Source: Planctomycetota bacterium
Lineage (GTDB): Bacteria; Planctomycetota; Phycisphaerae; UBA1845; UTPLA1
DNA length: 64,000 bases
NCBI GenBank assembly: GCA_003576905.1
Contig: QEVG01000001.1
Coordinates: 186,001-250,000 of the forward strand
Direction: 5' to 3'
The position numbers and the translations under genes were made by a program. Position 1 is the first letter of the stretch, and every line of letters begins with the position of its first letter. This document shows, piece after piece, positions 9,170-24,025 of this stretch. Below the pieces are notes generated by a model. It ran no database searches, was not told the origin of the DNA, and saw only the letters and a list, made by a program, of their open reading frames with translations.

Positions 9170-11644
9170 TTAGGGCGCCGTTGTGAAGCTGAACACCGCG
9201 CCGGTGGTCGTACCGGCGGCATTCTTGGCGTCAACGCGCCACAGGTACGTCGTGTTCGGCAATAGCGCTCCGGGGCTGAAGTTTCGCGTCGTCTGGTTGC
9301 CCTGGAACGGCGGGCTCGTCGTCGTGGCCACCGCGATCTGATCCCCAGGCGGCAGCAATGCGTTGTCCGCCTGCGAGATGAAGTACACATCGTAGCTCTC
9401 AGCTCGATCCGCACCGCTCCACGTCAGCGACGTGCTCGTCGGTACGTTTGTCGCACCGTTGAGTGGGCTTGGATTACCAACCTGGCCGGGCGGCGCCAGC
9501 GTCGTGTACCGCCACACGTCACCCTTGGTCACCGGCGTGCCGCCCTGGGCGACCGTGTCGATCCGCCAGTAGTACGTCGTATTCGGCGAGATCGCCATGA
9601 CGCTTGTCGGGTCGAACAGGGTACCGGACTGGTTGCCGCGGAACTCGGGGCTTGCGGTGGTGGCATTCGTCACTGCTGCAAGGTCGGTTCCGAAGTACAC
9701 GTCGTTTGTGTCCGCACCCGCTCCGTTCGTCCACTCCAGGATCTGGTCGAGCGGAATGCCGGTGGCCATGTTCGCCGGATTCGGGGCCGTCGCCTTTCCA
9801 AGTTCCGTGGTAAAGGTCCATACGTCGCCCTTCGTGCGGCTTCCGTCCGAGGCAACCTCGTCAATACGCCAGAAGTGCGCCCGGTTCGCTGCCATGCTGC
9901 CCGGCGGGTCGAACGTCGTCGTCGCCTGGTTGCCGCGGAAGATTCCCACGGTAAGCGGCGTGGCATTGGTCACATCGTTCAGGTCTTCGCCAAGGTACAC
10001 GTCATGGCTCGTCGCACCGAGGCCCGCGGTCCACGTCAGGTTTCGCGTCACTTCAACGTTGACCTGGTTATTGGCCGGCGTCGGATTGATCGCCTTCCCA
10101 GGGCCCGTCTTGAAGTTCCAGACCGTCCCCTTCACGACGCCGCCGGTGCCGACCTCGTCGATTCGCCAGAAGTACTGCGTGTTCGCGACCAGGGCCGAGG
10201 GTACGCCGCTCGGCGGGTTGAACATCTCATTGCCAAGAAGCTGGTTCCCCTTGAATTCGGCGTCGTCCTCTCCGGCGTTGTTCACCGCCGTCTGGTTCGT
10301 GCCGAAATACACGTTGTGGCTAAGTACATTCGTGCCCGGCGTCCACGACAGGGCGACGTCCGGCGCAACCGCCGTCGCATTGTTGGCGGGCTGCGGACCG
10401 GAAGCCGTGCCCGGCAGCGTGCCGGTGCGGAACCGGAAGATCGGCCCTTCATTACGCCCGCCGGGACCAACGGCATCCACCGTCCAGAAGTGCTCGGTGT
10501 TTGCCGCAAGCGGCGAAGCCGGCGAGAATGTCGTGACCACAGAGCTGAGCGTGGCGACCTTTGCCGCGGCATTGCGCGTCAGCACCTGATTCTGGTTCGA
10601 GCTCAGGTACACGTCGAAGCTGTTAAGAGGGCCGCCGCCCCCGCCGGGCGTCCAGGTCAGGTCCAGCTCGACGTCCTGATCAAGGGCATTATCCGCCGGC
10701 GCGGTCAGCATGACCTGCGCGGGTATGTCCGCCGTGCGGAACGTAAGCACCAGGCCCATCGTCGTCCCACCCGGACCCTTGGTGTCGATTCGCCAGTAAT
10801 AGTCCGTATCAAACAGCAGCGTCGGCGGCTGGAAGTTCTTGCTCGTCCGATTTCCCTGGAACTCGGGGCTGGTCGTGTCGGCCAGCGTGACATCGACGGG
10901 ATCGATGCCCAGGTACACGTCATAGCTCTCCACGCTCGAGGGAGCGTTCCAGCTCAGGATGGTCGTCACCGGTACATCGACCGACGTGTCGGCCGGGTTC
11001 GGGCTCGAAATCATCGGCGGAGGAGCGCGCGTCGTGAACATCCACACGTCGCCCTTGGTCGTCCCCCCGGGTCCCTTTTCATCCACGCGCCAGTAATAGG
11101 TCGTCGAGCCGATCAATTCGCCCTCGATCGTCGCATTCTCATCCGACGGATCGAACGTATTGCCGCTCTGGTTCCCCTTGAAGATGTCCGGAGTCGTCGT
11201 GTCCGCGTCGGTGACCGCGGTCATGTCCGTGCCGAAGTAAATGTCGTGGCTGGTCGTGCTCGCACCCACCGTCCACTGGAGCACCTGGTCCACGCGGGCG
11301 TTGGTCGAACCGTTCTGCGGTACCGGCGACTTGGCCTTTTCGGGCGCGGCCGCTGTCGTAAAGCTCCGCACCGTTCCCTTCGTAATGCCGACAGCGTTGA
11401 TTTCGTCGATCCGCCAGAAGTACGTCGTGCCCGGGAGGAGTCCGCCCGGATCAAAAGAGGTCGTCGTTTGCCCGCCCTTGAAGATGTCCGGCGTCGTGTC
11501 ATTCGCGCTGTTGACGGCGGCCTGATCCAGGCCGAGGTAGACATCGTGGCTGGTAGCGCGAGCGCCGGAGGTCCAAACCAGCTTGGTCGTGACGGCGACG
11601 TTCTGAGCGCCATCCGCGGGATTGGCGCCGGAGATCTGCCCCGG
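9170..11644 (-). repeat. Eight tandem FN3-like protein repeats
   Basis: The coding region for residues 138-961 of the lipoprotein consists of eight head-to-tail units of about 300 bases. Each unit contains recognisable copies of S-H-D-V-Y-x-G, G-N-Q-x-T/S-x-x-F and W-R-I-D-E. The copies have diverged enough in sequence that they are old duplications rather than recent amplification. Confidence 0.8.
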
Positions 11645-12055
11645 AAGCTCAGTCTCGCCAGGCCCCGGATTGGGATTATCCGACGGATTGACCGTCACGG
11701 TGCCGTCGATCTGTTCGACGAGTCCGTTTGTGTCAAAAATGAAGGCCGTTACCTGGAATTGCCCGGTACTGTCGTACCGATAGCTGATTGTCGTGCGATT
11801 GGGAGCGCCTTCGACGAAGCCGGAGCCATCGCCGAACACCCAGTTCACCTTCGCCACGGACGAAGGGTTCGTCACGGCATTGTCAATGCTGAACGCGACC
11901 GTGTAGTCCGGCTGATCGAACACCTGCACGAAGGTAATGCTGCCGAACGGATTGAGTGACACGCCGTCCGTGCCGCAGCCGTTCAGCGACACGCCCATTG
12001 CGACGACCGCGAAAAGCATCGCGGGCGCCGCCGCCCATCGTCTCGACTTCATCAT
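9170..12055 (-). CDS. Large surface lipoprotein with PKD-like domain and eight FN3-like repeats
   Basis: A 961-residue lipoprotein. The start is the MM pair at 12055, seven bases after GGGAGGG; the hydrophobic region and lipobox VSLNGC put the lipidated Cys at residue 27. Residues about 40-125 look like a PKD domain (VNWVFGDGSG ... ISYRYDSTGQFQVTAF). From residue 138 to the end there are eight consecutive repeats of about 95-105 residues, each with the plan NPADGA..V, L-x-W-T-x-G, S-H-D-V-Y-L/F-G-x-D, FKGNQ-x-T-x-F-x-P, Y-F-W-R-I-D-E and KGxVWxFTT. This is the fibronectin-III-like ‘WRVDE’ module common in planctomycete surface proteins. Probably an outer-membrane or surface adhesin or carbohydrate-interacting protein; no enzymatic domain seen. 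A 694-codon opposite-strand frame in this region is a composition artefact. Confidence 0.88.
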   Translation of the reverse strand: MMKSRRWAAAPAMLFAVVAMGVSLNGCGTDGVSLNPFGSITFVQVFDQPDYTVAFSIDNAVTNPSSVAKVNWVFGDGSGFVEGAPNRTTISYRYDSTGQFQVTAFIFDTNGLVEQIDGTVTVNPSDNPNPGPGETELPGQISGANPADGAQNVAVTTKLVWTSGARATSHDVYLGLDQAAVNSANDTTPDIFKGGQTTTSFDPGGLLPGTTYFWRIDEINAVGITKGTVRSFTTAAAPEKAKSPVPQNGSTNARVDQVLQWTVGASTTSHDIYFGTDMTAVTDADTTTPDIFKGNQSGNTFDPSDENATIEGELIGSTTYYWRVDEKGPGGTTKGDVWMFTTRAPPPMISSPNPADTSVDVPVTTILSWNAPSSVESYDVYLGIDPVDVTLADTTSPEFQGNRTSKNFQPPTLLFDTDYYWRIDTKGPGGTTMGLVLTFRTADIPAQVMLTAPADNALDQDVELDLTWTPGGGGGPLNSFDVYLSSNQNQVLTRNAAAKVATLSSVVTTFSPASPLAANTEHFWTVDAVGPGGRNEGPIFRFRTGTLPGTASGPQPANNATAVAPDVALSWTPGTNVLSHNVYFGTNQTAVNNAGEDDAEFKGNQLLGNEMFNPPSGVPSALVANTQYFWRIDEVGTGGVVKGTVWNFKTGPGKAINPTPANNQVNVEVTRNLTWTAGLGATSHDVYLGEDLNDVTNATPLTVGIFRGNQATTTFDPPGSMAANRAHFWRIDEVASDGSRTKGDVWTFTTELGKATAPNPANMATGIPLDQILEWTNGAGADTNDVYFGTDLAAVTNATTASPEFRGNQSGTLFDPTSVMAISPNTTYYWRIDTVAQGGTPVTKGDVWRYTTLAPPGQVGNPSPLNGATNVPTSTSLTWSGADRAESYDVYFISQADNALLPPGDQIAVATTTSPPFQGNQTTRNFSPGALLPNTTYLWRVDAKNAAGTTTGAVFSFTTAP

Positions 12056-12539
12056 CGTGAAACCCTCCCGCGGAACGGCCCTGAAAGCAGAAGCCGTCCG
12101 ATCGATGCCCCAGGGAGTCATTTCCGCGATCTCAAGCGCGTCACACCCGACACGCTTGCCGATCCCTCGGCCAATGACAACCCGCCGCATCGAACTGGAT
12201 TGCGAGAATCCAAACCCCCCAAAGAACGCCCGCCCCCTAGGGCCAATGGCTCCGATCATCCCGCCCAAAGCCCGTTGAGTGCACATCGGGACGACGCGGA
12301 GCCGGCGGCTACGCAAAAGTCTACGTCGCGTCCATTCCCCAATCAAGGTGGCGGGACCGATCCGAAGCGAATTGGGGCCGCTCCGAAAATAGCCATGTTA
12401 TCCCGATAGAACGCGTGTAAATCGCGGAACATCCGCAACGCCGCAGTGGCAATCTGGGACCACGTCACGGGCCGGACCTTGCCTATTCTCATAACTCAGC
12501 GTGTCGGAAATGTCCGAGACGGATAATGGTTCTGCCCGC
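12056..12539. other. 484-base non-coding gap upstream of the repeat lipoprotein
   Basis: Lies between the end of plsY and the start of the lipoprotein, both on the minus strand. Only the ribosome site of the lipoprotein (GGGAGGG near 12063-12069) is recognisable. No convincing gene, RNA fold or promoter pair was found. Confidence 0.5.
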
Positions 12540-13220
12540 TCAGGCCGCCGGCGGTTTCGCCCCCTGCCCGATACGGTTCTCCGTGCCTGCCAGCAAACGG
12601 GCGATGTTTGCACGGTGTCGGGTGACCACGAGCGCCGCGACAATAACAAGGAGGGCGAGGAGCGGATAATGCTCGGCGAGGGGCCAGCGGGCCAGCTTGG
12701 CCATGACAAGAAAGCAGATCGGCACGAACACCGCCGCGACAATCGAGCCGAGTGAGACATACCGAGTAAACGTCACGACAAGCGCCCACAGAACAAACGC
12801 GCTCAGTGCCGGGAGGGTCAGATAGGGATAGATGCCGAGCATGACGCCGAGGGACGTCGCGACGCCTTTGCCGCCCTTGAACCCGGCGAAGACCGGAAAC
12901 ACGTTTCCCAGCACGCAGGCCATTCCCGTAGTAAGCCAGAGGATGTCCCGCCAGAACGGGGCGACGGGCGCCTCAGCCCACGGCCCGGAAACCAGCCCCG
13001 CGCAGATCGTCGCGGCCGCCCCTTTCGCAAGGTCAAGCAGAAACACGAGCACGCCCCACCACCTGCCAAGGACCCGCCCGACATTGGTCGCCCCGAAGTT
13101 TCCGCTTCCCTGCCGGCGGATATCCACACCCCGCGATCGCGCCACCACCAGCCCCGTCGGAATGCTTCCCAGAAGGTAGGAGCCGAGGATCAGGACGGCG
13201 TATTGCGGATTGAGAATCAT
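12540..13220 (-). CDS. plsY: Glycerol-3-phosphate acyltransferase PlsY
   Basis: Integral membrane enzyme that transfers the acyl group of acyl-phosphate to glycerol-3-phosphate, the first committed step of phospholipid synthesis in most bacteria. The 226-residue protein shows the three PlsY signature loops: GSIPTGLVVARSRGVDIR-x-x-GSGN-x-GATNV, then GNVFPVFAGFKGGKGVATSLG, then the final TRHRANIARLLAGTE. About five to seven hydrophobic helices are visible, and the length matches the family. Start at ATG 13220. It is the last gene of the reverse LPS operon, 23 bases after the GT4 gene, linking phospholipid and LPS synthesis. Confidence 0.96.
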   Translation of the reverse strand: MILNPQYAVLILGSYLLGSIPTGLVVARSRGVDIRRQGSGNFGATNVGRVLGRWWGVLVFLLDLAKGAAATICAGLVSGPWAEAPVAPFWRDILWLTTGMACVLGNVFPVFAGFKGGKGVATSLGVMLGIYPYLTLPALSAFVLWALVVTFTRYVSLGSIVAAVFVPICFLVMAKLARWPLAEHYPLLALLVIVAALVVTRHRANIARLLAGTENRIGQGAKPPAA

Positions 13221-13243
13221 GAGGCAATTGCGCAAACGGTCGG

Positions 13244-14422
13244 TCACACGGGCTGCGACCGCGCGGACCGTGTTTCGACCAGTTCCTTGAATACGAGTTC
13301 GAGTTCGTCGACGTGCCGCTGCATGCCCACCCGCTCGCGAAGCTCCAGCGCGCGCTGGGACATGCGCCGGCGAAGATCGCCGTCCGAGAGCTCTTGGATG
13401 CGCCGCGCCCACATGCCCACCGCATCCGGAGACTCGATGACGAAGCCGTCGTGGCCGTCGGTGATGACCTCCGCCGCGCCGTTGAACGCCGTCGTTATGC
13501 AGGGCAGCCCCGCCGACAGACCCTCCAGCACGACCCGGCTGCACGGGTCGTAATAGGTCGGATGCACGAGCACGTCCGCGGCATGCAGATAGTTCAGCGT
13601 CCGCTGCGTGGGCCCTGTAAACGTGACAAACCGCGCGATCCCCAGCTCCTGGAGCCGGCGCTGATACCCGATCGGGTTGTCCCGGCCGACCACCAGCAGG
13701 TGAAACGACTCAAACCCCGAGACAACCAGCCGCGATATCGTCTCAATCAGCGGGCTCAGTCCCTTCAGCCGAAAATTGTGCGCCACAAAGAGCAAGAGCA
13801 GTTGCCCGTCGGGCACCTGGTGTTGTCGCCGGATGTCCAGGCGATGTTCCTGCCGCTGCCCCTCCGGAACCCGCGGAACGCTCACACCGTTGAACACCAC
13901 GCGCACGCGCGGAGACGACACACCGTAAATCCGTTCGCATTGCCGCGCGACATAATTCGAGACCGCTAGGATCGTCGGCCCTCCCTCGCGGAATACGTGC
14001 CGCTCCAGGTCGAGTAGCGATCGCTGCTTCATGTTCATCGCGAGCAGCGCCTGCTTGAGCAGTTGCCGCGGCCGCGACGACCGGGTCGCCACGTTTCTCT
14101 CCAGCGTTTCCCCCAGGAGCCCCCCGCGCGGCTGGTAAGTGTCCCCCGTCCCAAGCGGAGAAATCGCGTGAACAATGTCGAACGACCGCGCTTTAAGAAA
14201 CTCCGTCGACCGGCGGATAAACGCCGCCATGCGCAGCGGCCGAAGCAGCGTTCCCCCCGGTATGCGATGCATTGTCAGGTCCGGGGGCGGCGCTGCGTTG
14301 GTCGTGGTCACGACGTGGACCTCGTGCCCCCTCGCCGCGAGAAGCCTTGCGATCTCCTGGGTCGACGTCTCCGCGCCGCCGCGCCAGGGTTCGAATCGTT
14401 CGATGACCAGTGCGATCTTCAA
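13244..14422 (-). CDS. GT4 family glycosyltransferase (WaaG-like)
   Basis: A 392-residue cytoplasmic GT-B glycosyltransferase. The N-terminal domain has MKIALVIERFEPWRGGAE with the usual glycine-rich acceptor loop; the C-terminal nucleotide-sugar domain has GLSPLIETI, LLVVGRDN and the E-x7-E block in SRVVLEGLSAGLPCITTAFNGAAEVI. The overall layout, and the placement next to WaaP-like kinases and a heptosyltransferase, match LPS glucosyltransferase WaaG, which adds the first hexose to heptose II. Its ATG overlaps the stop of the upstream kinase gene by four bases, indicating translational coupling. Sugar donor and acceptor are inferred from context only. Confidence 0.9.
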   Translation of the reverse strand: MKIALVIERFEPWRGGAETSTQEIARLLAARGHEVHVVTTTNAAPPPDLTMHRIPGGTLLRPLRMAAFIRRSTEFLKARSFDIVHAISPLGTGDTYQPRGGLLGETLERNVATRSSRPRQLLKQALLAMNMKQRSLLDLERHVFREGGPTILAVSNYVARQCERIYGVSSPRVRVVFNGVSVPRVPEGQRQEHRLDIRRQHQVPDGQLLLLFVAHNFRLKGLSPLIETISRLVVSGFESFHLLVVGRDNPIGYQRRLQELGIARFVTFTGPTQRTLNYLHAADVLVHPTYYDPCSRVVLEGLSAGLPCITTAFNGAAEVITDGHDGFVIESPDAVGMWARRIQELSDGDLRRRMSQRALELRERVGMQRHVDELELVFKELVETRSARSQPV

Positions 14423-16164
14423 GTAGCGTGCCTTTCGGTCCGCCGGCGGCGGCGGTTTGCATCATGCCGGGCCATTCGACGGGTCCGGGCCGCAATGAGC
14501 CGGATGATCTCGCGCGCCCGCTCTTTCCTCAGCCGCCGCGCGCCGGCCCATTGATAATGGTACAGGAAACGAATCCGGTCGGCACGGGTCACCACCGGGG
14601 ACGGGCTGCTGTAATCCAGGGCCGCAAGGTCCTTGAGCACCCACCTTTCAAAAAACACCGGCCGCTCAATCATTCGCGCCAGATCGATCAGTCGGAGGAC
14701 GATCCCACCGTCCGCGTTTCGGCTGATGAACACATGGCACAGATAGAGATCGCGATGAAAGTACCGGTGTCTGTGCAGGTGCCGGACCAGAATGGCCAGT
14801 TGGCGGATGATCTCGTGCCGCTCGCGTGGGCGTGGAATCGCCGTCGGATCGCTTTCGGCGCGCAGCGCCAGCTTTTCGAGCGACTCCCCGGCAAGTTCCT
14901 CGGTAATGAGAAAACTCCGCCGCTCCCATCGGCCAGACATCTCCTGCCCCCAGGCCAGCGCCCGCATCGTCGGTACGCCGATGCGCGAAAGGTGCTTGAT
15001 GAAATGCGCCTCGCGCTTCGCCGTGCTGTCGCGGCGATCGTGTTCACGCATTCGCCGCAGTTGCTCCCTCAGCGGCGGGCGGTCGTACCGCTTGAGATAG
15101 CAGACCCTTTCGCCGCTTGTGGCGTCTCTCAAGATCAGGCGCACGCGCTCCCGGTACGTCGCAAGGCCCGGCTTGCCCAGGCGCTGCCCCCCAACGGGGC
15201 CGAACACATCCTCAAGGCCATGGATGCCGTTCGCCTTGAGCAGGCTCCTTGCCTCCGGCGTGGCGACGACTTCCGACACACATTCCATTGTCCGCGCGCC
15301 GGGGTGCACATGATCCTCCGGGAGCCGCGGCGGATTCATCCATTCGCCGAAAAGCCGTGCGGTGCTACGAAGTTCCGCAGCGCTCAACACGCCGGCCGGA
15401 ACGTCGATCGCATCGAGGTATCCCCTCCCGAAATGCAGCATGTCGCGTCGCGTGAGCCTGCACGGAAGGAGCGACTCTCTTAGCCGAACGCCGTCCACTG
15501 CAAGTCGCACCGCGCCGTCATGCGCTGTCGACGCAGAGTCCCGGCCGCCGCGCGTCATTCGCTCCACGTCCACCATCCACAGCCGCCAGCCGAGAGGTTC
15601 CTCGCTCGCGCGACATGCGAAAATGTGCTTGGCGTCAATATCAGGCCATGTCATTCCGAGCCGATGAAACCCCGCCATCAACGCTCCGACCGCCTCGAAG
15701 AGCCTCCTCCGATCGGACTCCCCAGGCCCTCCCCCCTTTTTCCAGCCAGGCACCAGCAGGTGACGCAGCGTCGTCTCACACGGCACCTTTTCAACCAGTA
15801 GAAACGCCTCCCGGGGGACGCCCAGCACTCGGCGCTCGCCGAACGCGACCCTCTTCATCGCGGAAACGCCCGCCCGCTCAAGGTCCCAAAGTACGGCCCA
15901 TTCATGCCTCGGTTGCGAAACGCCCCGCCGAAGGCGAAGGAGTGGTGCAACTGCGTGCCGCGGCGGGACGCGAAACACCCGCTTGAGGAAGAACGCACGA
16001 GGTTTTCCGTCGATCACGATCTCGAGCGGAACGGTCTCCCGATGGGCATGCCTGCTCGCCGGCGGACCCGAGCCTTGAACGCGCATGAACCCCTCAAAAT
16101 CGCCAAGTCCGGCGGCCTGAAGTGCGGCGCGGTACTCCGGCACGATTTCAAGCAGCGGATTCAC
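14419..16164 (-). CDS. Tandem (double) LPS-core kinase, WaaP/InaA family
   Basis: A 581-residue protein made of two kinase-like halves. Half 1 (about 1-300) opens with LQAAGLGDFEGFM, has the Lys strand AFFLKRVFR, a catalytic loop changed to WPDIDAKHIF and a metal-binding VDVERM. Half 2 (about 310-570) opens with LKANGIHGLEDVF, has VCYLKRYDR, a classic WaaP loop YFHRDLYLCHVF and LIDLAR. In both the usual Asn of the HRDLxxxN loop is His, as in WaaP/RfaP heptose kinases. The single-kinase genes downstream of the heptosyltransferase share the same opening motif, so this gene probably arose by fusing two tandem copies. Expected role: phosphorylating two positions of the LPS inner core. Four-base overlaps on both sides. 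C-terminus is strongly basic (RRRRRTER). Confidence 0.85.
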   Translation of the reverse strand: MNPLLEIVPEYRAALQAAGLGDFEGFMRVQGSGPPASRHAHRETVPLEIVIDGKPRAFFLKRVFRVPPRHAVAPLLRLRRGVSQPRHEWAVLWDLERAGVSAMKRVAFGERRVLGVPREAFLLVEKVPCETTLRHLLVPGWKKGGGPGESDRRRLFEAVGALMAGFHRLGMTWPDIDAKHIFACRASEEPLGWRLWMVDVERMTRGGRDSASTAHDGAVRLAVDGVRLRESLLPCRLTRRDMLHFGRGYLDAIDVPAGVLSAAELRSTARLFGEWMNPPRLPEDHVHPGARTMECVSEVVATPEARSLLKANGIHGLEDVFGPVGGQRLGKPGLATYRERVRLILRDATSGERVCYLKRYDRPPLREQLRRMREHDRRDSTAKREAHFIKHLSRIGVPTMRALAWGQEMSGRWERRSFLITEELAGESLEKLALRAESDPTAIPRPRERHEIIRQLAILVRHLHRHRYFHRDLYLCHVFISRNADGGIVLRLIDLARMIERPVFFERWVLKDLAALDYSSPSPVVTRADRIRFLYHYQWAGARRLRKERAREIIRLIAARTRRMARHDANRRRRRTERHAT

Positions 16165-16964
16165 GCGGACTCCTCATGGTCCTTGATGGCGCGATCAAGG
16201 AGGATCGATCCCATCATCAGGCGATGCACCTCCGTCAGCTTCCGCACGTCCAGGTAGCGCCGCAACCACCAGATCTGCTGCCGCGGACTCAGCCGCACCC
16301 GCGCCTCCTTGTAAAGGCTTGACAGGTCGCGCAGTCGCCCATGCTCACAGCGCCACGGATGCCGCCGGCGCCCGCCGCGCGCGCAGTCGAGAAGGTACAC
16401 ACGCGGCTCTTCCGGGTTCGTTAGCGACACCAGCATGTTGCGCCACTGGAGGTCAATGTGATAAACTCGCGCCGTATGCATCCGCGCGACCGCCTCCGCC
16501 GTCCGCTCCATCACGTCGCGGCAGAGTTTATCACGAAGGCCGTCCAGGCGGAGGTTCGGCCGTCCCGCCGCGAACGCGTCGAGCGGCTGGCAATCCGGGA
16601 CCGCGCGGGTGACGACAAATCCGTCTGTCATCAGCGGCCCGCGCCGCCGGCTCCCAAGCGCCACCACGTCAGGCACGTCAATGCCGCACTGCTCACGCAG
16701 GAGCCGGTAGTTCCGCGCCTCGCGGAGCGGCTTACTCGATGTCAAGCGAAATGGAACCGCCTTTCCGTCATACCGATAGGCCTTGAGATACAGAACGTCG
16801 TCGCCGGATGCCGTCCGGACAGTCAGGCGCCGCGTACACGTGGTACCCGATTGATGGACCACTTCGCCGCCTGCGCATCCGACGAAATCCGCGTAGCGAA
16901 TGAGCCCGGCCGCGGCCAGCGGGGCCTTCATTTCGGGTTCGAGAATTCGAAGTAGGATGCTCAT
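16161..16964 (-). CDS. LPS-core kinase, InaA/WaaP family
   Basis: A 267-residue single-domain kinase of the lipopolysaccharide kinase family. It opens with LAAAGLIRYADFV, the same short motif found at the start of each kinase unit of this operon. The Lys-bearing strand is VLYLKAYRYDG, the catalytic loop is VYHIDLQWRNMLV (HID instead of HRD, Asn present) and the metal-binding block is LLDCARG. The last two codons overlap the start of the double kinase by four bases. Probably phosphorylates a heptose or Kdo residue of LPS; specificity cannot be read from sequence. Confidence 0.84.
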   Translation of the reverse strand: MSILLRILEPEMKAPLAAAGLIRYADFVGCAGGEVVHQSGTTCTRRLTVRTASGDDVLYLKAYRYDGKAVPFRLTSSKPLREARNYRLLREQCGIDVPDVVALGSRRRGPLMTDGFVVTRAVPDCQPLDAFAAGRPNLRLDGLRDKLCRDVMERTAEAVARMHTARVYHIDLQWRNMLVSLTNPEEPRVYLLDCARGGRRRHPWRCEHGRLRDLSSLYKEARVRLSPRQQIWWLRRYLDVRKLTEVHRLMMGSILLDRAIKDHEESA

Positions 16965-16996
16965 TCAGAAATGCGGGCTCGCTCCCCGAGGGACGA

Positions 16997-17863
16997 CTAG
17001 GCAGCGCCGGCGATCCGGATCGGCGGGTCGAAAACCGAGCCGCGCTCGAGCCGCTGAAGCTCCGAGTCGCGGAACTTGTCCTGTCGGGACTGAACGCGCC
17101 GAAGCCACTGCCGGTCTTCGGGCGTGAGCCGGTCCGTCGCCAAATATTCGAGAAGAAACCGGAGTTGATCCGACTTCGAACAGAACTCGGGCGCGAGCAC
17201 GCCCATCGCCGCGATATCGTGGACGATGCTTTCCTGTCGCCGCTGTGCAATCCGGATTCGCCGCCCCACCGAGGCATCCAGAAAATAAAACTCGAACCGT
17301 TCGTCCGGCAGCGGACGTATCAGCACGTTTCGCCAGAACAGGTCCCGGTGCACGAAGCCCATCTCGTGCATATGCCGCACCTGCCGTGCCAGCGATGTCA
17401 GGATTTCCACCTTTGCCCGGCGCGTATGCGACGTCATCACGTGGTCGGCAAACGTCTTGATAAACGTCACCAGCGACATGGCGTCTGGAACCGCCTCGGT
17501 AATCAGAAAACAGCTCTTCACGAAGTGCAGCGTGCGACGCTCGCCGAACGCGATCGGACGCACCGCCTGAATCCCGAGTCGCCGCATCGCCGAAAGAGCC
17601 CGGAATTCGCTCCGCGCCCGCGACGCCTTCAAGAACGTCCCCCGCAGCATCCCGCGAAATCGTCGCCGCCAGCCGGGGTAATGATACCGCTTGATGTAAA
17701 TGCTCCCGTCGCCGCCGGGCAACTTGACCAGAATGGTGTCCGTCGTCCGGCTCCAGGCCGCAAGTCGGTCTCCGACGCAGCGCAGGACCGATTGCACGCT
17801 GTCCAGTCCCGCCTTCTGAAGTCGCTCCCGGAAGGGCGCATCGATGAGCATGTAATCAGCCAT
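16997..17863 (-). CDS. LPS-core kinase, InaA/WaaP family
   Basis: A 288-residue kinase with an intact HRD: FVHRDLFWRNVLI, metal-binding FLDASVG, Lys strand SIYIKRYHYPG and the shared opening LQKAGLDSVQSVL. The start ATG 17863 lies inside the last codons of the heptosyltransferase gene (8-base overlap), so it is translationally coupled to it. Of the four kinase units in this operon this one has the most canonical active site. Expected substrate: inner-core heptose or Kdo of LPS. Confidence 0.85.
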   Translation of the reverse strand: MADYMLIDAPFRERLQKAGLDSVQSVLRCVGDRLAAWSRTTDTILVKLPGGDGSIYIKRYHYPGWRRRFRGMLRGTFLKASRARSEFRALSAMRRLGIQAVRPIAFGERRTLHFVKSCFLITEAVPDAMSLVTFIKTFADHVMTSHTRRAKVEILTSLARQVRHMHEMGFVHRDLFWRNVLIRPLPDERFEFYFLDASVGRRIRIAQRRQESIVHDIAAMGVLAPEFCSKSDQLRFLLEYLATDRLTPEDRQWLRRVQSRQDKFRDSELQRLERGSVFDPPIRIAGAA

Positions 17864-19001
17864 GCACTTCTTCCGATTGAACGGTCGCCCGGTCGCGCGA
17901 CGTCTCGCCCCTCTTCTGACGCCGGCCCGACGCCGGCAGGAGCTGCCTGATCTTCTCCATGACCATCTCGGGCGGCAGGTCCTGCATGCACTTGTGATGC
18001 TTGAGCGGGCATACCCGCTCCATGCACGGCTGGCACTCCAACGTGAGCATCGCGATGCGCTCTTGGGCAAATCGCGTGTCGGTCCACGCGGGATCGCTCG
18101 ACCCGAAGACTGTCACGACCGGTACGTCGAATGCCGCCGCGAAATGGCGCGGGCCCGTGTCATTCGTCACGAGCAGATCGCACCGCCGGACAAGCGCCTT
18201 GAGCGGACCCAGGCCCAGCGGCGGATCAACAAAGATCTCGATCGGGCTGCGCGCCGCCGCCGCCAGCCGATCTGCGATCGGTTTCTCCTTCGGAGATAGC
18301 GACGCCACCACCCGGGCGTCATACTGCCGCGTGAGCATTTCCGCCAGCAGTGCATACTTCTCTGCAGGCCAGCACTTCGCCGACCCGTAATTCGCCCCCG
18401 GATTCAGGGCAACAAGCGGCCGATCTTCGTCAATTGCCCCTAGCCGGGCATCCACGGCCGCTTCGTCCTCCGGGCCCGTGGCCAGTACGAGACGGTCCCC
18501 GGCCTCCCCGCATCCGAATGCCCGCGCAAGGTCGTTGTAATAGTCCAGCGCCGGCACCGGCACGTACTCACCGTCTTTTCTGGATGGCCTGAGCATCTCC
18601 GTCAGCAGCCAGCCGCGCCCGTCTCGGGCATAGCCCAGCCGACGGGGGATCCCCGCCGCCCTTGCGACGAGGGCCGAGCGAAACGAGTTGGTCAGCAGAA
18701 CGGCCGCGACGAAGTCGCGGCGTCGCAGGTCTCGAATATGTCGGACAGTGGCCCCCATTCCCGCCTGCGAATCCGGCCAGAACAGGAATTCATCGGCAAG
18801 CCCGGCGTGTGCAAGTACGTCGGCCACATAGGGCCGCATGAGAAACGCGATATGCGAATGTTGGTAGGTCCGCCGAATCGCACCAAGCGCCGCCGTGGCC
18901 ATCACCACATCACCAACCCAGTTAGGGATGAAAATCAGAATGGATCGGGGCTCGTCCACGCAGTCATACCTCGGCGGATCAGGAGCCAAGTATAGCCGCA
19001 T
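17856..19001 (-). CDS. GT9 family LPS heptosyltransferase (WaaF-like)
   Basis: A 381-residue GT-B enzyme of glycosyltransferase family 9. N-terminal domain: ILIFIPNWVGDVVMATAALG, the WaaC/WaaF hallmark. C-terminal domain: NPGANYGSAKCWPAEKYA and TNDTGPRHFAAAFDVPVVTVFGSSDP, matching the ADP-heptose site of heptosyltransferase II; a Cys-rich block near ECQPCMERVCPLKHHKC is also typical. First gene of the reverse LPS operon and so probably sets the order heptose transfer then phosphorylation. I start at ATG 19001; a GTG at 19037 would add 12 residues, and neither has a strong ribosome site. No adjacent waaC or gmh gene is present. Confidence 0.9.
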   Translation of the reverse strand: MRLYLAPDPPRYDCVDEPRSILIFIPNWVGDVVMATAALGAIRRTYQHSHIAFLMRPYVADVLAHAGLADEFLFWPDSQAGMGATVRHIRDLRRRDFVAAVLLTNSFRSALVARAAGIPRRLGYARDGRGWLLTEMLRPSRKDGEYVPVPALDYYNDLARAFGCGEAGDRLVLATGPEDEAAVDARLGAIDEDRPLVALNPGANYGSAKCWPAEKYALLAEMLTRQYDARVVASLSPKEKPIADRLAAAARSPIEIFVDPPLGLGPLKALVRRCDLLVTNDTGPRHFAAAFDVPVVTVFGSSDPAWTDTRFAQERIAMLTLECQPCMERVCPLKHHKCMQDLPPEMVMEKIRQLLPASGRRQKRGETSRDRATVQSEEVHG

Positions 19002-19171
19002 GGGGATGTTGCGCGAATGACAGTTGTCTTCGCCCACCGCGCGTGGGGTCCTGTTCGGCTGGACAAGGAACGGAAATTGACCTAAATTACCCCGTTTCAG
19101 GAGTTGCTCCCGTGCCGGGGTGCAAGATACGAGTCTGATTTACGCGACTGCGTAGCAGGAGAAACGTGGCC

Positions 19172-19945
19172 ATGGGATTGATGTCAGGCAAGAGAGGCGT
19201 CGTACTGGGTGTGGCAAACGATCACAGTCTCGCCTGGTACATCGCCGAATACCTGCACCGCGAAGGCGCCGAAATGGCCTTCAATCACCTCCCCGGCGAA
19301 AAAATGGAGCGCCGCGTCAAGAAGCTTACCGAGACCATTAACGCCAGGATCGTCCTGCCCTGCGACGTCAGCCAGGATTCCGACGTCGAGCACTTCTTCG
19401 GAAAAGTCCGCGAACAGTACGACCAGATCGACTTTCTCGTCCATGCCGTCGCCTTCGCGAATCGCGACGCCCTGACCAATCGCTTCTGGGAGACGCGCCG
19501 TGAGGACTTCAAGCAGGCGATGGACATCAGTTGTTATTCGCTGATTGCCGCATGCCAGAAGGCCTTCCACATGCTGCGCGAGGGGGCCAGTGTCCTGACC
19601 CTTAGCTACCTCGGATCCGTCAAGTTCGTCCCCGGTTACAACGTCATGGGCGTCTGCAAGGCCGCCCTGGAAAGCACCGTCCGCTACCTCTCGGCGGACC
19701 TGGGCGACCTCCGCCGTGTCCGCGTCAACGCCATCAGCGCCGGTCCCTGCCGGACGCTCAGCTCGGCCGGCATCGGCGGATTCGACAAGATCCTCGAACA
19801 CTACCCCACCAAGTCCCCGTTGCGCCGCAACATCGAATCCGACGAGGTCGGCAAGGCCGGCCTCTACCTGTGCAGTGACCTCTCCAGCGGCGTCACCGGC
19901 GAGATCCACTACGTCGACGCCGGGTACAACATTGTCGGCTGGTAG
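19172..19945 (+). CDS. fabI: Enoyl-[acyl-carrier-protein] reductase (NADH) FabI
   Basis: Reduces trans-2-enoyl-ACP in the last step of each fatty-acid elongation cycle. The 257-residue short-chain dehydrogenase fold aligns along its length with FabI: MGLMSGKRGVVLGVANDHS, the FabI-type Y-x6-K active site in SYLGSVKFVPGYNVMGVCKAALE (Tyr and Lys present), VNAISAGPCRTLSSAGI and the ending VDAGYNIVG. Start at ATG 19172, ten bases after AGGAG; a GTG six bases upstream is possible. Divergent from the LPS operon. Being the NADH type enoyl reductase, it is the expected target class of triclosan. Confidence 0.95.
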   Translation: MGLMSGKRGVVLGVANDHSLAWYIAEYLHREGAEMAFNHLPGEKMERRVKKLTETINARIVLPCDVSQDSDVEHFFGKVREQYDQIDFLVHAVAFANRDALTNRFWETRREDFKQAMDISCYSLIAACQKAFHMLREGASVLTLSYLGSVKFVPGYNVMGVCKAALESTVRYLSADLGDLRRVRVNAISAGPCRTLSSAGIGGFDKILEHYPTKSPLRRNIESDEVGKAGLYLCSDLSSGVTGEIHYVDAGYNIVGW

Positions 19946-21908: not shown

Positions 21909-23900
21909 TCAAGGCGCCAGAATCTTGTCGACCAGGGCCTGAATATCCGCGCCGTTGGGACCGCTGGAGTTGTCCATGTCGGCCGCGCAGACCTTGCGTG
22001 GATCGGTCTCGAGGCCCAGGAGAACGTCCGTGAAGTGCGGGATATCGTCCACGGTCACGCTCCGATCCCCATCGACATCGCCCTTCAGCTCCACCGAAAA
22101 GAGCGACGGGGCCCCCACCGTGGCCATCTTGACCGGCGCGCTCTTGCCAGTGGCGACCCAGAGGTTGTAAGCAACCTGCCCGCGATTATTTGGATTCCCC
22201 GGAAACGGGTTGTTGTCCCTCAGAAACTCGATGTACTCCTTCGTCGTCGCCTGGTAATAGAGCGAAACCCGGGCCCCCACCGCGTACGCCGGAATCTCAA
22301 AAAAAGTATCGTCCCAGTATTGGCCGTCCGCGTAACTGTACGCCACCGGGCTGGCCTGCACGGCCGCGAATTTCAGGTTCGAAAACCCGCGCGGCGGAAT
22401 GCGATTGTCCTTGTAAATCTTGTTCGTCAGTACGAAATGCATGGCCGGACCCGCCGTCCGCCCAAGCGTTGCCGCCAGTGCTTCGTCGATCCCGCCCTTC
22501 ATCTCGTACACCTTGGTCGTGGCTGTATCGAGTTCCGCCGTGTTCGAGTCGTAGCCCCCAAACGTCACGACCGGATTCACGTAATCCGTGCAATCGAAAA
22601 ACTCGACTGTGACCCATATCCGGCGGCCCTCGGGGTATCCGCTCGGCAGCTTATGGCCCGTCTGGTTGACGACCCTTACTCTCAACTGTTCGATGCCCGG
22701 TGTCTGCGAATCATCCAGTGATGCCTCGAGGTCCGCGGCCCGCTCCAGCATGTCGATGTTACGCAGCTTGTTGTTCTGAAGCTGCGTGACCCGCGCCGCC
22801 GTCAGTTCGCCGGTTCCGCCCGGCCCGTATTGCTGTGCGATCGCATCCAGCTGCCACGTCGCCGCCCCGCTCAGATAGTGCCGGGGAAGGTCGTCGCGCG
22901 GCGCAGGTACCCAGCGGCACCCATGCGCCGTGTCATACGGCATGTGGCAATCCTGGCACTGTGACACGTACGTCTGGCCCGGCCCCCCGAAGCGTCCTCC
23001 GAGATCAACCCCCATCCCGACTGCAAAGTCGCTCTTGAGCCATTCGCTGTAGGTGCGCTCGATTGGAACCATGTCGTACTTGTTCCCGGTCGCGTGCGGA
23101 TTCCCGGGCGCGTTCGGCACGAACGACGTTCCCATCATGTCGTACGAAAAGTGCGGCAGGCTCACGTCGTGACACGTCGCGCAAAGCTGCGATCGGCGAT
23201 GAAACGGCGATTCAAATGTATCGTGGTAGATCTCGCAGTCCGCTTCATTTCCTTCAGGCTCTTCCCCTGTCGGAGGAAGTGGAAACGGCCCCCGCCGACG
23301 GTCCTGCGGATCGACGACGTAGTTCCCGTTGCCCCCGTGTCCCGTTGAGCTCGGCATGCCCCGGTCCATCTGCGGTGCCGGGGCATCGGCGCCCAGACCG
23401 GCCAGTATCGCCGCGTCGATCGACGGCGCGTCGCCCAGCTCATCAAAGGGGTCCACGAGCCGGTGGCAGAAGTGACAGTTGATTCCGTCGCGATCGGCAG
23501 CGGCGATCGCAGACCCATCCGTCGGCGTGGAGCGCCCTTCGAGCCAGGCCTTCGGTACGTGGCAGCGTATGCACAGGTCGCCCGAACCCGGTGCATCCGC
23601 CTCCGCAATGTCCAGACACGCGTAAAACACCGGGTCCCGCGCCGCCTGCGCCATCAGGCTGCCGGTCCAGTCGTCACTGATCACCACCGGCGAACCGTCG
23701 CCCGATACGATCCCCCCGTGACACGTCGAGCAACTGCTCGAACTGTGAATCGCGACGCTCAGCCCGCCGGGCTGCGTGCCGGGCATCCGAAAATTAGTGA
23801 CATTGGTGTTCATGGGGACTTGCCCCACGGCAACGGCTTCACCCATCAGCGTTATCAGGGCGATGAGAATCATCCGAGAGACCAGTGCGTGCGCGTTCAT
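21909..23900 (-). CDS. Secreted five-haem cytochrome c family protein with dockerin-like C-terminus
   Basis: A 663-residue exported protein. The start ATG 23900 follows GGGAG; signal peptide ends around VAVGQ. Five CxxCH haem-attachment motifs occur: CSTCH, CIRCH, CHFCH, CATCH and CQDCH, all in the N-terminal half (to about residue 310). The C-terminal half is a beta-rich region without Cys-His motifs. The last ~60 residues, GDVDGDRSVTVDDIPHFTDVLLG followed by AADMDNSSGPNGADIQALV, are two calcium-binding dockerin-type half repeats, a frequent planctomycete ending. Likely an extracytoplasmic electron-transfer protein or multihaem oxidoreductase anchored through the dockerin. Substrate unknown. 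Confidence 0.87.
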   Translation of the reverse strand: MNAHALVSRMILIALITLMGEAVAVGQVPMNTNVTNFRMPGTQPGGLSVAIHSSSSCSTCHGGIVSGDGSPVVISDDWTGSLMAQAARDPVFYACLDIAEADAPGSGDLCIRCHVPKAWLEGRSTPTDGSAIAAADRDGINCHFCHRLVDPFDELGDAPSIDAAILAGLGADAPAPQMDRGMPSSTGHGGNGNYVVDPQDRRRGPFPLPPTGEEPEGNEADCEIYHDTFESPFHRRSQLCATCHDVSLPHFSYDMMGTSFVPNAPGNPHATGNKYDMVPIERTYSEWLKSDFAVGMGVDLGGRFGGPGQTYVSQCQDCHMPYDTAHGCRWVPAPRDDLPRHYLSGAATWQLDAIAQQYGPGGTGELTAARVTQLQNNKLRNIDMLERAADLEASLDDSQTPGIEQLRVRVVNQTGHKLPSGYPEGRRIWVTVEFFDCTDYVNPVVTFGGYDSNTAELDTATTKVYEMKGGIDEALAATLGRTAGPAMHFVLTNKIYKDNRIPPRGFSNLKFAAVQASPVAYSYADGQYWDDTFFEIPAYAVGARVSLYYQATTKEYIEFLRDNNPFPGNPNNRGQVAYNLWVATGKSAPVKMATVGAPSLFSVELKGDVDGDRSVTVDDIPHFTDVLLGLETDPRKVCAADMDNSSGPNGADIQALVDKILAP

Positions 23901-24025
23901 GGAGACTCCCGCGTGGAGGTGACTTCGGCTCACCGGCGCGATTCACGAGCGGGCAGATGTGCAGGGAAACCCCCAGGTGCGATAGACCTCCCGGTCCCCT
24001 CTCACCCCCAATCTGACCCTTCACT

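Follow-up and report, generated by a model that had tools for sequence, protein, structure and literature searches.

Pseudomonas aeruginosa carries four kinase genes in one lipopolysaccharide (LPS) core operon, together with heptosyltransferases and a family 4 glycosyltransferase (GT4), as set out in the operon accounts cited here (PMC8707732; PMC8005017 Table 1), and its core heptoses are described as strongly phosphorylated (PMC8005017; PMC6147952). In that operon, PA5006-PA5012 (waaF, waaC, wapG, waaP, wapP, wapQ, PA5006), the four WaaP-type kinases are PA5006-PA5009. The waaQGP/WaaY cluster of Escherichia coli K-12 has WaaP beside WaaG and the GT9 gene waaQ, with a second kinase, WaaY, in the cluster. 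Here we describe a comparable locus in a planctomycete. Within a 64,000-nucleotide stretch of a Planctomycetota bacterium genome (assembly GCA_003576905.1, contig QEVG01000001.1, positions 186,001 to 250,000; hereafter the window), positions 12540-19001 of the minus strand hold six genes, encoding a heptosyltransferase, two single kinases (K1 and K2), a double kinase (DK), a GT4 enzyme and the acyltransferase PlsY. Four WaaP-family (PF06293) units, K1, K2 and the N- and C-terminal units of DK (dkN and dkC), are spread over the three kinase genes, flanked by the heptosyltransferase II and the GT4/PlsY pair. The analysis bore out this reverse gene order and, by profile searches, these gene identities, which an original prediction had read from the letters alone.

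The locus shares with P. aeruginosa PA5006-PA5012, as the cited sources present that operon, four WaaP-type kinases, a heptosyltransferase and a GT4 enzyme in one operon; the likeness is one of gene content. P. aeruginosa has four kinase genes, whereas the window has four units in three genes, two of them fused. PA5006, with a length of at least 493 aa, may be a tandem too. The window's kinases lie between the heptosyltransferase and GT4 while those of P. aeruginosa lie beyond both, and PlsY is added in the window only. The E. coli cluster differs in having two separate kinases, no tandem fusion and no PlsY. A literature search by title and start of abstract, with most papers unopened, returned nothing on the core kinases of planctomycetes or their expansion, on pseudokinases of the WaaP type, on heptose kinases in tandem or on WaaP-heptosyltransferase fusions.

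We favor the reading that the four units are inner-core heptose kinases with different acceptors, and put its probability at about 0.58. The operon would then build and phosphorylate the LPS inner core: the heptosyltransferase (II-like) would add heptose, the WaaP-family kinases, working on the cytoplasmic side of the inner membrane, would use ATP to phosphorylate the heptoses, GT4 would extend the core, and PlsY next door would make lysophosphatidate. In the window's own family (f1; f2, f4, f5, f6 and f8 are other families of the order), all four units would most likely be active, each on a separate hydroxyl of heptose I, heptose II or possibly heptose III, and the outcome would be a strongly anionic, Mg-bridged inner core. 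This reading joins observed family membership, catalytic residues, fold (dkC and K2), neighborhood and four-clade phylogeny with a predicted activity, predicted acceptors and a predicted division of labor.

Four kinase units with conserved catalytic residues

All four units exceed the Pfam cut-off of 21.3 bits for PF06293, the lipopolysaccharide kinase (Kdo/WaaP) family (Table 1). The hidden Markov model (HMM) search of each kinase half, proposed as a check alongside the original prediction, placed both dkN and dkC in this family, their separate scores coming from the search of the whole genome, and the whole 581-aa DK scored 152.9 bits over two stretches.

Structural modeling, a second proposed check, gave a WaaP-like kinase fold for dkC and K2. 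The DK model (18 sequences) had a mean predicted local distance difference test score (pLDDT) of 88.9 and a predicted template modeling score of 0.87, and its top Foldseek match was WaaP (6dfl_A), followed by three JAK-family chains. dkC matched 6dfl_A by sequence (E 1.1e-18) and in the VIA comparison (Z 21.6, 237 residues, root mean square deviation 3.2). The dkN part of the model had pLDDT mostly >90 in residues 1-200 and a kinase-like order of strands and helices; the VIA rows cover residues 304-568 only. The K2 model (pLDDT 90.3) had WaaP 6dfl_A as its best PDB match (E 2e-13, template modeling score 0.74 on the target), and K1 matched the same chain by sequence (E 3.1e-10).

In the mutant data reported for P. 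aeruginosa WaaP, K51, H161, D163, Y165, H168, D188 and R191 are needed for growth (PMC6147952, Table 1), E78A is strongly impaired and R162A nearly neutral, and H161A and Y165A abolish function (PMC6147952). All four window units keep the equivalents of K51, E78, D163, H168 (as H or N) and D188. In kinase terms, the catalytic Lys, the alphaC Glu, the Asp of the His-Arg-Asp (HRD) motif, the Asn/His and the Asp of the Asp-Phe-Gly (DFG) motif are present in 4/4 units, the HRD His being missing in dkN (W173); none of the four has lost the catalytic Asp, the loss by which a pseudokinase would be recognized. Conservation extends to an alignment of 116 domains. Lys and Glu are kept in 30/30 K1, 15/15 K2, 18/18 dkN and 16/17 dkC rows; K1 keeps Lys, Glu, Asn and DFG-Asp in 30/30, and K2 keeps these plus the HRD Asp in 15/15. 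The sole degenerate dkC row (L071 of genome G030) has a degenerate dkN as well. The suggestion that some units are now regulatory finds no support in K1, K2 and dkC of the window, whose catalytic residues are kept.

dkC holds all eight functionally required WaaP residues. It resembles WaaP/RfaP (6dfl) in fold, in these residues and in tree position, and is unlike it in being fused to a second kinase unit and in the DK score of 169.0 bits vs the 170 bits of the heptose (I) kinase model. The position of Y165 is Tyr in 50 of 51 sequences (dkC 16/17, single WaaPs 34/34), Phe in all 16 K1 copies of f1 and f6, and Gln (13) or Arg (2) in K2. Since this position is substrate-binding in WaaP, we infer that its clade-specific letters in dkC, K1 and K2 reflect different acceptors. 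The original idea of several distinct acceptor sites thus gains the difference between unit clades that it would lead one to expect, in units of an LPS-kinase family within an LPS-core operon.

The four units are old paralogues

The window's units are only 26-28% identical to one another, which indicates that the duplications relating them are old. In a tree of 45 hand-picked rows, K1 units formed one clade (support 100/99), K2 units another (100/100), dkN grouped with the N-terminal units of other double kinases (92/93), and dkC grouped with E. coli WaaP and the order's single WaaPs (99/95). dkN joined the WaaP/dkC group, apart from K1 and K2 (100/97). The group at 92/93, a support that was not starred, comprises all 13 N-terminal rows, and a grouping of the 12 without L130 was not rejected by the approximately unbiased (AU) test (p-AU 0.512); dkN may therefore have a single origin across the Planctomycetia-type and Phycisphaerae records, or more than one. 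A quick tree of 116 domains recovered the same four groups. Within DK, the matches to single kinases across the order fall in dkC, which is on this evidence the order-wide WaaP and probably the ancestral unit (heptose I kinase type), with dkN its nearest paralogue and K1 and K2 two further old paralogues.

The sampling behind these trees was as follows. Four extra K1 copies (L187-L190), the strongest K1 matches outside f1, f4 and f6 besides G042, were also hand-picked. Four short domains were dropped before the first tree. A second quick tree left out nine loci of genomes already included (L106-L113, L173) and took as single kinases every third locus number plus L117, L123, L124 and L128; in it and in the 45-row tree, two HMM pieces of the second unit of L130 were taken as one continuous open reading frame (ORF) stretch. 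The quick trees carry long-branch warnings. The root of the 45-row tree was set on the K1 rows by choice, one named outgroup row having fallen on the wrong side, and the order of the duplications and the oldest unit are not readable from it.

The phylogeny that had been called for returned four separate clades with orthologues in relatives. A recent duplication of the four units was rejected, given their identity and four clades common to other genomes; of the repeated duplication first proposed, ancient duplication stands and recent copying does not. The proposal had leaned on a short motif shared by the unit starts. The motif is real and lies near the N-termini, with the spacing L-x-x-[AN]-G-[LI]-x5-[FV]; in the x4 form first given it occurs in 0 of the window's kinases and in 3/116 domains. 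Of the 34 single WaaP domains from relatives, 24 also carry a relaxed x5 motif. Repeated duplication read from this motif was rejected for that reason, and the motif is, as its distribution indicates, a family trait and no sign of recent duplication.

The four-kinase layout is normal in the window's family

Four units are present in 15 of 17 f1 genomes. K1, K2 and DK are contiguous in nine of these (G000, G001, G002, G006, G008, G010, G011, G013, G016); in four (G003, G007, G014, G015) the operon is split, with heptosyltransferase-K1 apart from K2-DK-GT4-PlsY; in G004 the units stand at three places; and in G012 the run is cut by contig ends. Of the remaining two, G005 runs into a contig end past K2; in G009 no DK and no K2 turned up, and the sole K1 match is a tandem kinase of the type found on contig C25 of the window's genome (see below). 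One f6 genome (G021) also holds four units, with no GT4 or PlsY detected beside them.

Elsewhere in the order the layouts are smaller. Of 22 loci from f2, f5 and f8, 21 have one WaaP here and L064 has two kinases; for most f5 loci no adjacent heptosyltransferase was detected, and for L070 no neighbor of the set at all. A K1-like or dkN-like unit occurs elsewhere in the genome in G040, G046, G048 and G030 of these families. In f4, K1 and WaaP are found together in 13/13 loci, with a heptosyltransferase detected in 12. Within f1 the four-kinase layout is the rule; elsewhere in the order, the one f6 genome aside, the locus holds one or two kinases. The layout had been called unusual, a description that is not supported, given its presence in 15 of 17 f1 genomes and the four kinase genes already published for the P. 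aeruginosa operon. An ordinary feature of all relatives, the finding named beforehand as fatal to the idea, it is not: it is ordinary in f1 and gives way to one or two kinases in f2, f4, f5 and f8. The operon with four kinases is real, and in f1 it is both old and conserved; the number four alone is not new.

Among 80 named loci matching DK, the best match was 'uncultured planctomycete isolate PLA6'; two were labeled Omnitrophota and the rest Planctomycetota or groups within it, mostly metagenome-assembled genomes. In a survey of the phylum, 140 of 199 genomes, the window's own included, matched the DK profile at E <= 1e-10, with the WaaP half accounting for most of the matches listed. Seventeen of the 80 named loci encode a double kinase as a single ORF (two cut by the contig start, nine from f1/f6 genomes). 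Two records labeled Planctomycetia carry one: L116, where the families of the double kinase were checked, reads heptosyltransferase-DK-GT4-PlsY, and L130 reads heptosyltransferase-DK with no GT4 or PlsY detected.

Some records lie outside these patterns. In L071:9334-11016 (G030, f5) both units of a double kinase are degenerate, and an intact WaaP (L070) stands elsewhere in that genome. L124 and L142, labeled Candidatus Omnitrophota, carry a WaaP 38-40% identical to dkC, transfer and mis-binning not being distinguished; in a quick tree L124 falls among planctomycete WaaPs.

The same surveys bear on the possibility that the locus reflects ordinary LPS-kinase paralogy, a lineage-specific accumulation without distinct acceptors that gives partly redundant dosage. 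WaaP-family matches are common (18 PF06293 matches in the window's genome, and double-length kinase frames across the phylum), and the account cited for wapQ describes it as deletable in P. aeruginosa, with small effects when deleted alone in P. syringae (PMC8982409). Each unit, however, belongs to a clade to itself and has its catalytic residues conserved, and at the Y165 position three of the four clades differ in the letter they carry; it would also be surprising for redundant copies to last in 15 of 17 genomes. We consider paralogy of this kind quite unlikely. The one-, two- and four-kinase planctomycete layouts, with the kinase-kinase and heptosyltransferase-kinase fusions, offer a natural series in which to ask which kinase adds which core phosphate, and for what reason; by analogy with Pseudomonas, they may also bear on the outer-membrane strength that depends on core phosphate.

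The link to heptose

A heptosyltransferase and a WaaP-type kinase are fused in one ORF of 617-727 aa in 15 of the 80 named loci, among them L149:4873-6828, L146 and L167, with eight in records titled Sedimentisphaerales. Profiles confirmed the L149 fusion (TIGR02195 136.7 bits, cut-off 134.6, plus RfaP 104.1 bits). This fusion and the neighborhood tie WaaP to heptose transfer. The window's genome has KdtA, an HldE-like protein and three GT9 proteins, so that a core of 3-deoxy-D-manno-octulosonic acid (Kdo) and heptose is plausible. For another planctomycete, Planctopirus limnophila, the cited account reports almost all lpx genes as essential (PMC10632474).

Some units might instead act on non-heptose sugars (Kdo, or a hexose added by GT4) or on another glycolipid. 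The Kdo kinase model also picks up K1 (36.7 bits) and K2 (36.0 bits), the latter nearly as well as RfaP does (45.2 bits), and in four genomes K2 sits beside DK-GT4-PlsY, at a distance from the heptosyltransferase. Yet RfaP outscores Kdo kinase for K1, K2 and DK, by which Kdo kinase was rejected as the best model, and the neighbor, elsewhere the fusion partner, is a heptosyltransferase. We regard non-heptose acceptors as improbable.

The PlsY neighborhood is conserved in many loci. The proposed coupling of phospholipid synthesis to LPS would rest on this gene adjacency.

dkN as kinase or regulator

dkN keeps the HRD Asp in 17 of 18 rows of the 116-domain set, the Mg-binding His in 18/18 and the DFG-Asp in 17/18. 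In 15 aligned double kinases of f1 and f6, its K61, E88, D175, H180, D199 and R202 are invariant; seven of eight functional positions are invariant vs 21 invariant columns of 290 (P = 2.8e-8), six of the seven being the WaaP residue and the seventh Trp.

Several observations nonetheless weigh against four active heptose kinases, most of them at dkN. Trp replaces the HRD His in 18/18 dkN rows, and with the Y165 position this leaves dkN without two of the eight residues required in WaaP. The Y165 position itself carries eight different letters over 18 rows, so that the dkN acceptor does not appear fixed. The alphaF Asp is aligned in only 7/18 rows. In the wider set of 18, L114 and L117 have Arg for Lys and Thr or Met for Glu, and the N-terminal unit of L130 has Asn for the DFG-Asp. 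Beyond dkN, no unit is filed as an RfaP/WaaP heptose (I) kinase equivalog (NF011703), because all score below its cut-off of 170 bits (DK 169.0 in two stretches, K1 69.1, K2 45.2), and the HldE-like protein, at 309.1 bits, falls short of the 345 bits set for its family. The ancestral role of K1 may moreover not have been catalysis, as its catalytic Asp is absent from the copies examined outside f1 and f6.

The dkN features would suit a unit that regulates dkC or serves as its scaffold, as in pseudokinase-kinase tandems, with only three units phosphorylating the core. Trp stands in 18/18 rows at the HRD His, and no residue is conserved at the Y165 position, the two sites whose alanine replacement abolishes WaaP function; L114 and L117 lack the catalytic Lys and Glu in the N-terminal unit beside an intact C-terminal one; dkN is fused ahead of WaaP in f1/f6; and in G030 (L071) both halves of a double kinase are degenerate. 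In Foldseek, three JAK-family chains with pseudokinase-kinase tandems also align with the DK model, over 523-543 columns. In the JAK tandem, as in DK, the N-terminal unit has an altered HRD. The likeness is a structural analogy only, in that both have two kinase units per chain; dkN differs in keeping the catalytic Asp, the substrates are different, and family membership is not claimed. Against a regulatory dkN, the six invariant residues persist among double kinases of which the others are 37-56% identical to that of the window, which would be unexpected of a dead kinase, and a single-domain dkN relative (L080) keeps K, E, D, H and DFG-Asp. The earlier notion of regulatory units thus finds some footing at dkN, in the Trp, the variable Y165 position and the Lys and Glu lost in two distant relatives, and is countered by the Lys, Glu and Asp kept in the window's own dkN. 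We hold a regulatory dkN to be the main alternative, possible but on balance rather doubtful. The N-terminal units of the Planctomycetia type carry Phe or Tyr at the position of the dkN Trp.

The K1 clade is split at the catalytic Asp

The HRD Asp of K1 is present in 17/17 copies from f1 and f6 and absent from all 18 copies examined elsewhere. All 13 copies from f4 lack it, having Asn (6), Gln (6, with L093 Gln by alignment) or Arg (1); f5 copies have Ala (L064) or Ser (L187), and f8 has Gly in three copies from two genomes. The 14 aligned Asp-less copies keep the Lys that binds ATP as well as Glu, Asn and DFG-Asp. Asn in this place, HGN instead of HRD, also occurs in the JAK pseudokinase domain. 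The proposal of regulatory units fits these K1 copies of other families and not K1 of the window. A single loss of the Asp was not rejected (p-AU 0.363), nor were several losses or a regain; a two-change count rests on L187 read by eye (HGSM).

K1 might have been, at the root, a dead partner of the heptosyltransferase and WaaP, with the Asp possibly regained in the window's lineage and K2 and a fused dkN added, taking the system from one kinase and a silent partner to four active units. We think this course unlikely; if true, it would be an example from nature of bacteria gaining or losing a pseudokinase within an operon of sugar kinases. The split in the clade makes the boundary between kinase and pseudokinase in sugar kinases testable.

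Among the K1-like units, those of L188:847-2844 (G040), L189 and L190 (G046) have HGGL for HRDL. The unit of L188 makes up the N-terminal part of a 666-aa ORF, and the C-terminal part of this ORF resembles, by eye, a methyltransferase.

Gene cluster and neighboring features

The genes of the cluster are listed in Table 1. The junctions, in bases, are -8 (heptosyltransferase/K1), +32 (K1/K2), -4 (K2/DK), -4 (DK/GT4) and +23 (GT4/PlsY). The overlaps of 4-8 bases said to join the whole operon are real at three of the five junctions; K1/K2 and GT4/PlsY are separated by gaps. Terminator-like sites in the cluster region are not in excess (3 seen vs 5.7 expected), so that a single transcription unit stays plausible.

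Table 1. Genes and kinase units of the LPS-core cluster, in window coordinates
Feature	Position	Strand	Length	Profile matches	Remarks
Heptosyltransferase (GT9; heptosyltransferase II)	17856..19001	-	381 aa	PF01075 135.1 bits; TIGR02195 191.9 bits (cut-off 134.6)	above the TIGR02195 cut-off
K1, single WaaP-family kinase	16997..17863	-	288 aa	PF06293 80.5 bits	HRD intact (HRDLFWRN)
K2, single WaaP-family kinase	16161..16964	-	267 aa	PF06293 61.3 bits	HIDLQWRN
dkN, N-terminal unit of DK	15295..16164	-	residues 1-290	PF06293 60.3 bits	WPDxxxKH replaces HRDxYxxH
dkC, C-terminal unit of DK, WaaP orthologue	14419..15294	-	residues 291-581	PF06293 95.9 bits	HRDLYLCH
GT4 glycosyltransferase	13244..14422	-	392 aa	PF00534 93.4 bits; PF13439 76.6 bits	WaaG/WapG position of other core clusters
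PlsY glycerol-3-phosphate acyltransferase	12540..13220	-	226 aa	PF02660 178.7 bits; TIGR00023 163.3 bits (cut-off 137.2)	above the TIGR00023 cut-off

A search of the whole genome of the window (4.7 Mb, 65 contigs) gave 18 PF06293 matches at E <= 0.001, the four units included. One is a second tandem kinase, at C25:29795-31843 (L079:7796-9844), a 683-aa frame with two PF06293 stretches (95.5 bits), which directly follows a release-factor gene (PCRF and RF-1 domains). Eight ORFs adjoining it were scanned for signs of an LPS context: five drew no Pfam match, the remaining ones (the release factor, HEAT repeats and a kynureninase) are not LPS genes, and the tandem does not lie in an LPS cluster. 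Frames of ~630-750 aa with weak matches to the units recur in many genomes of the order.

Around the cluster, an ORF divergent to the operon at 19166-19945 on the plus strand matches enoyl-acyl carrier protein (ACP) reductase (PF13561, 270.6 bits); P. aeruginosa WaaP needs acyl-ACP, and a link of this gene to the operon is only a guess. Downstream of PlsY, at 9170-12346 on the minus strand, a 1058-aa ORF shows repeated Fn3-like segments by eye and had no NCBIfam match at 1e-3. A 674-aa ORF at 21909-23933 on the minus strand has, by eye, several CxxCH heme motifs and a dockerin-like C-terminus.

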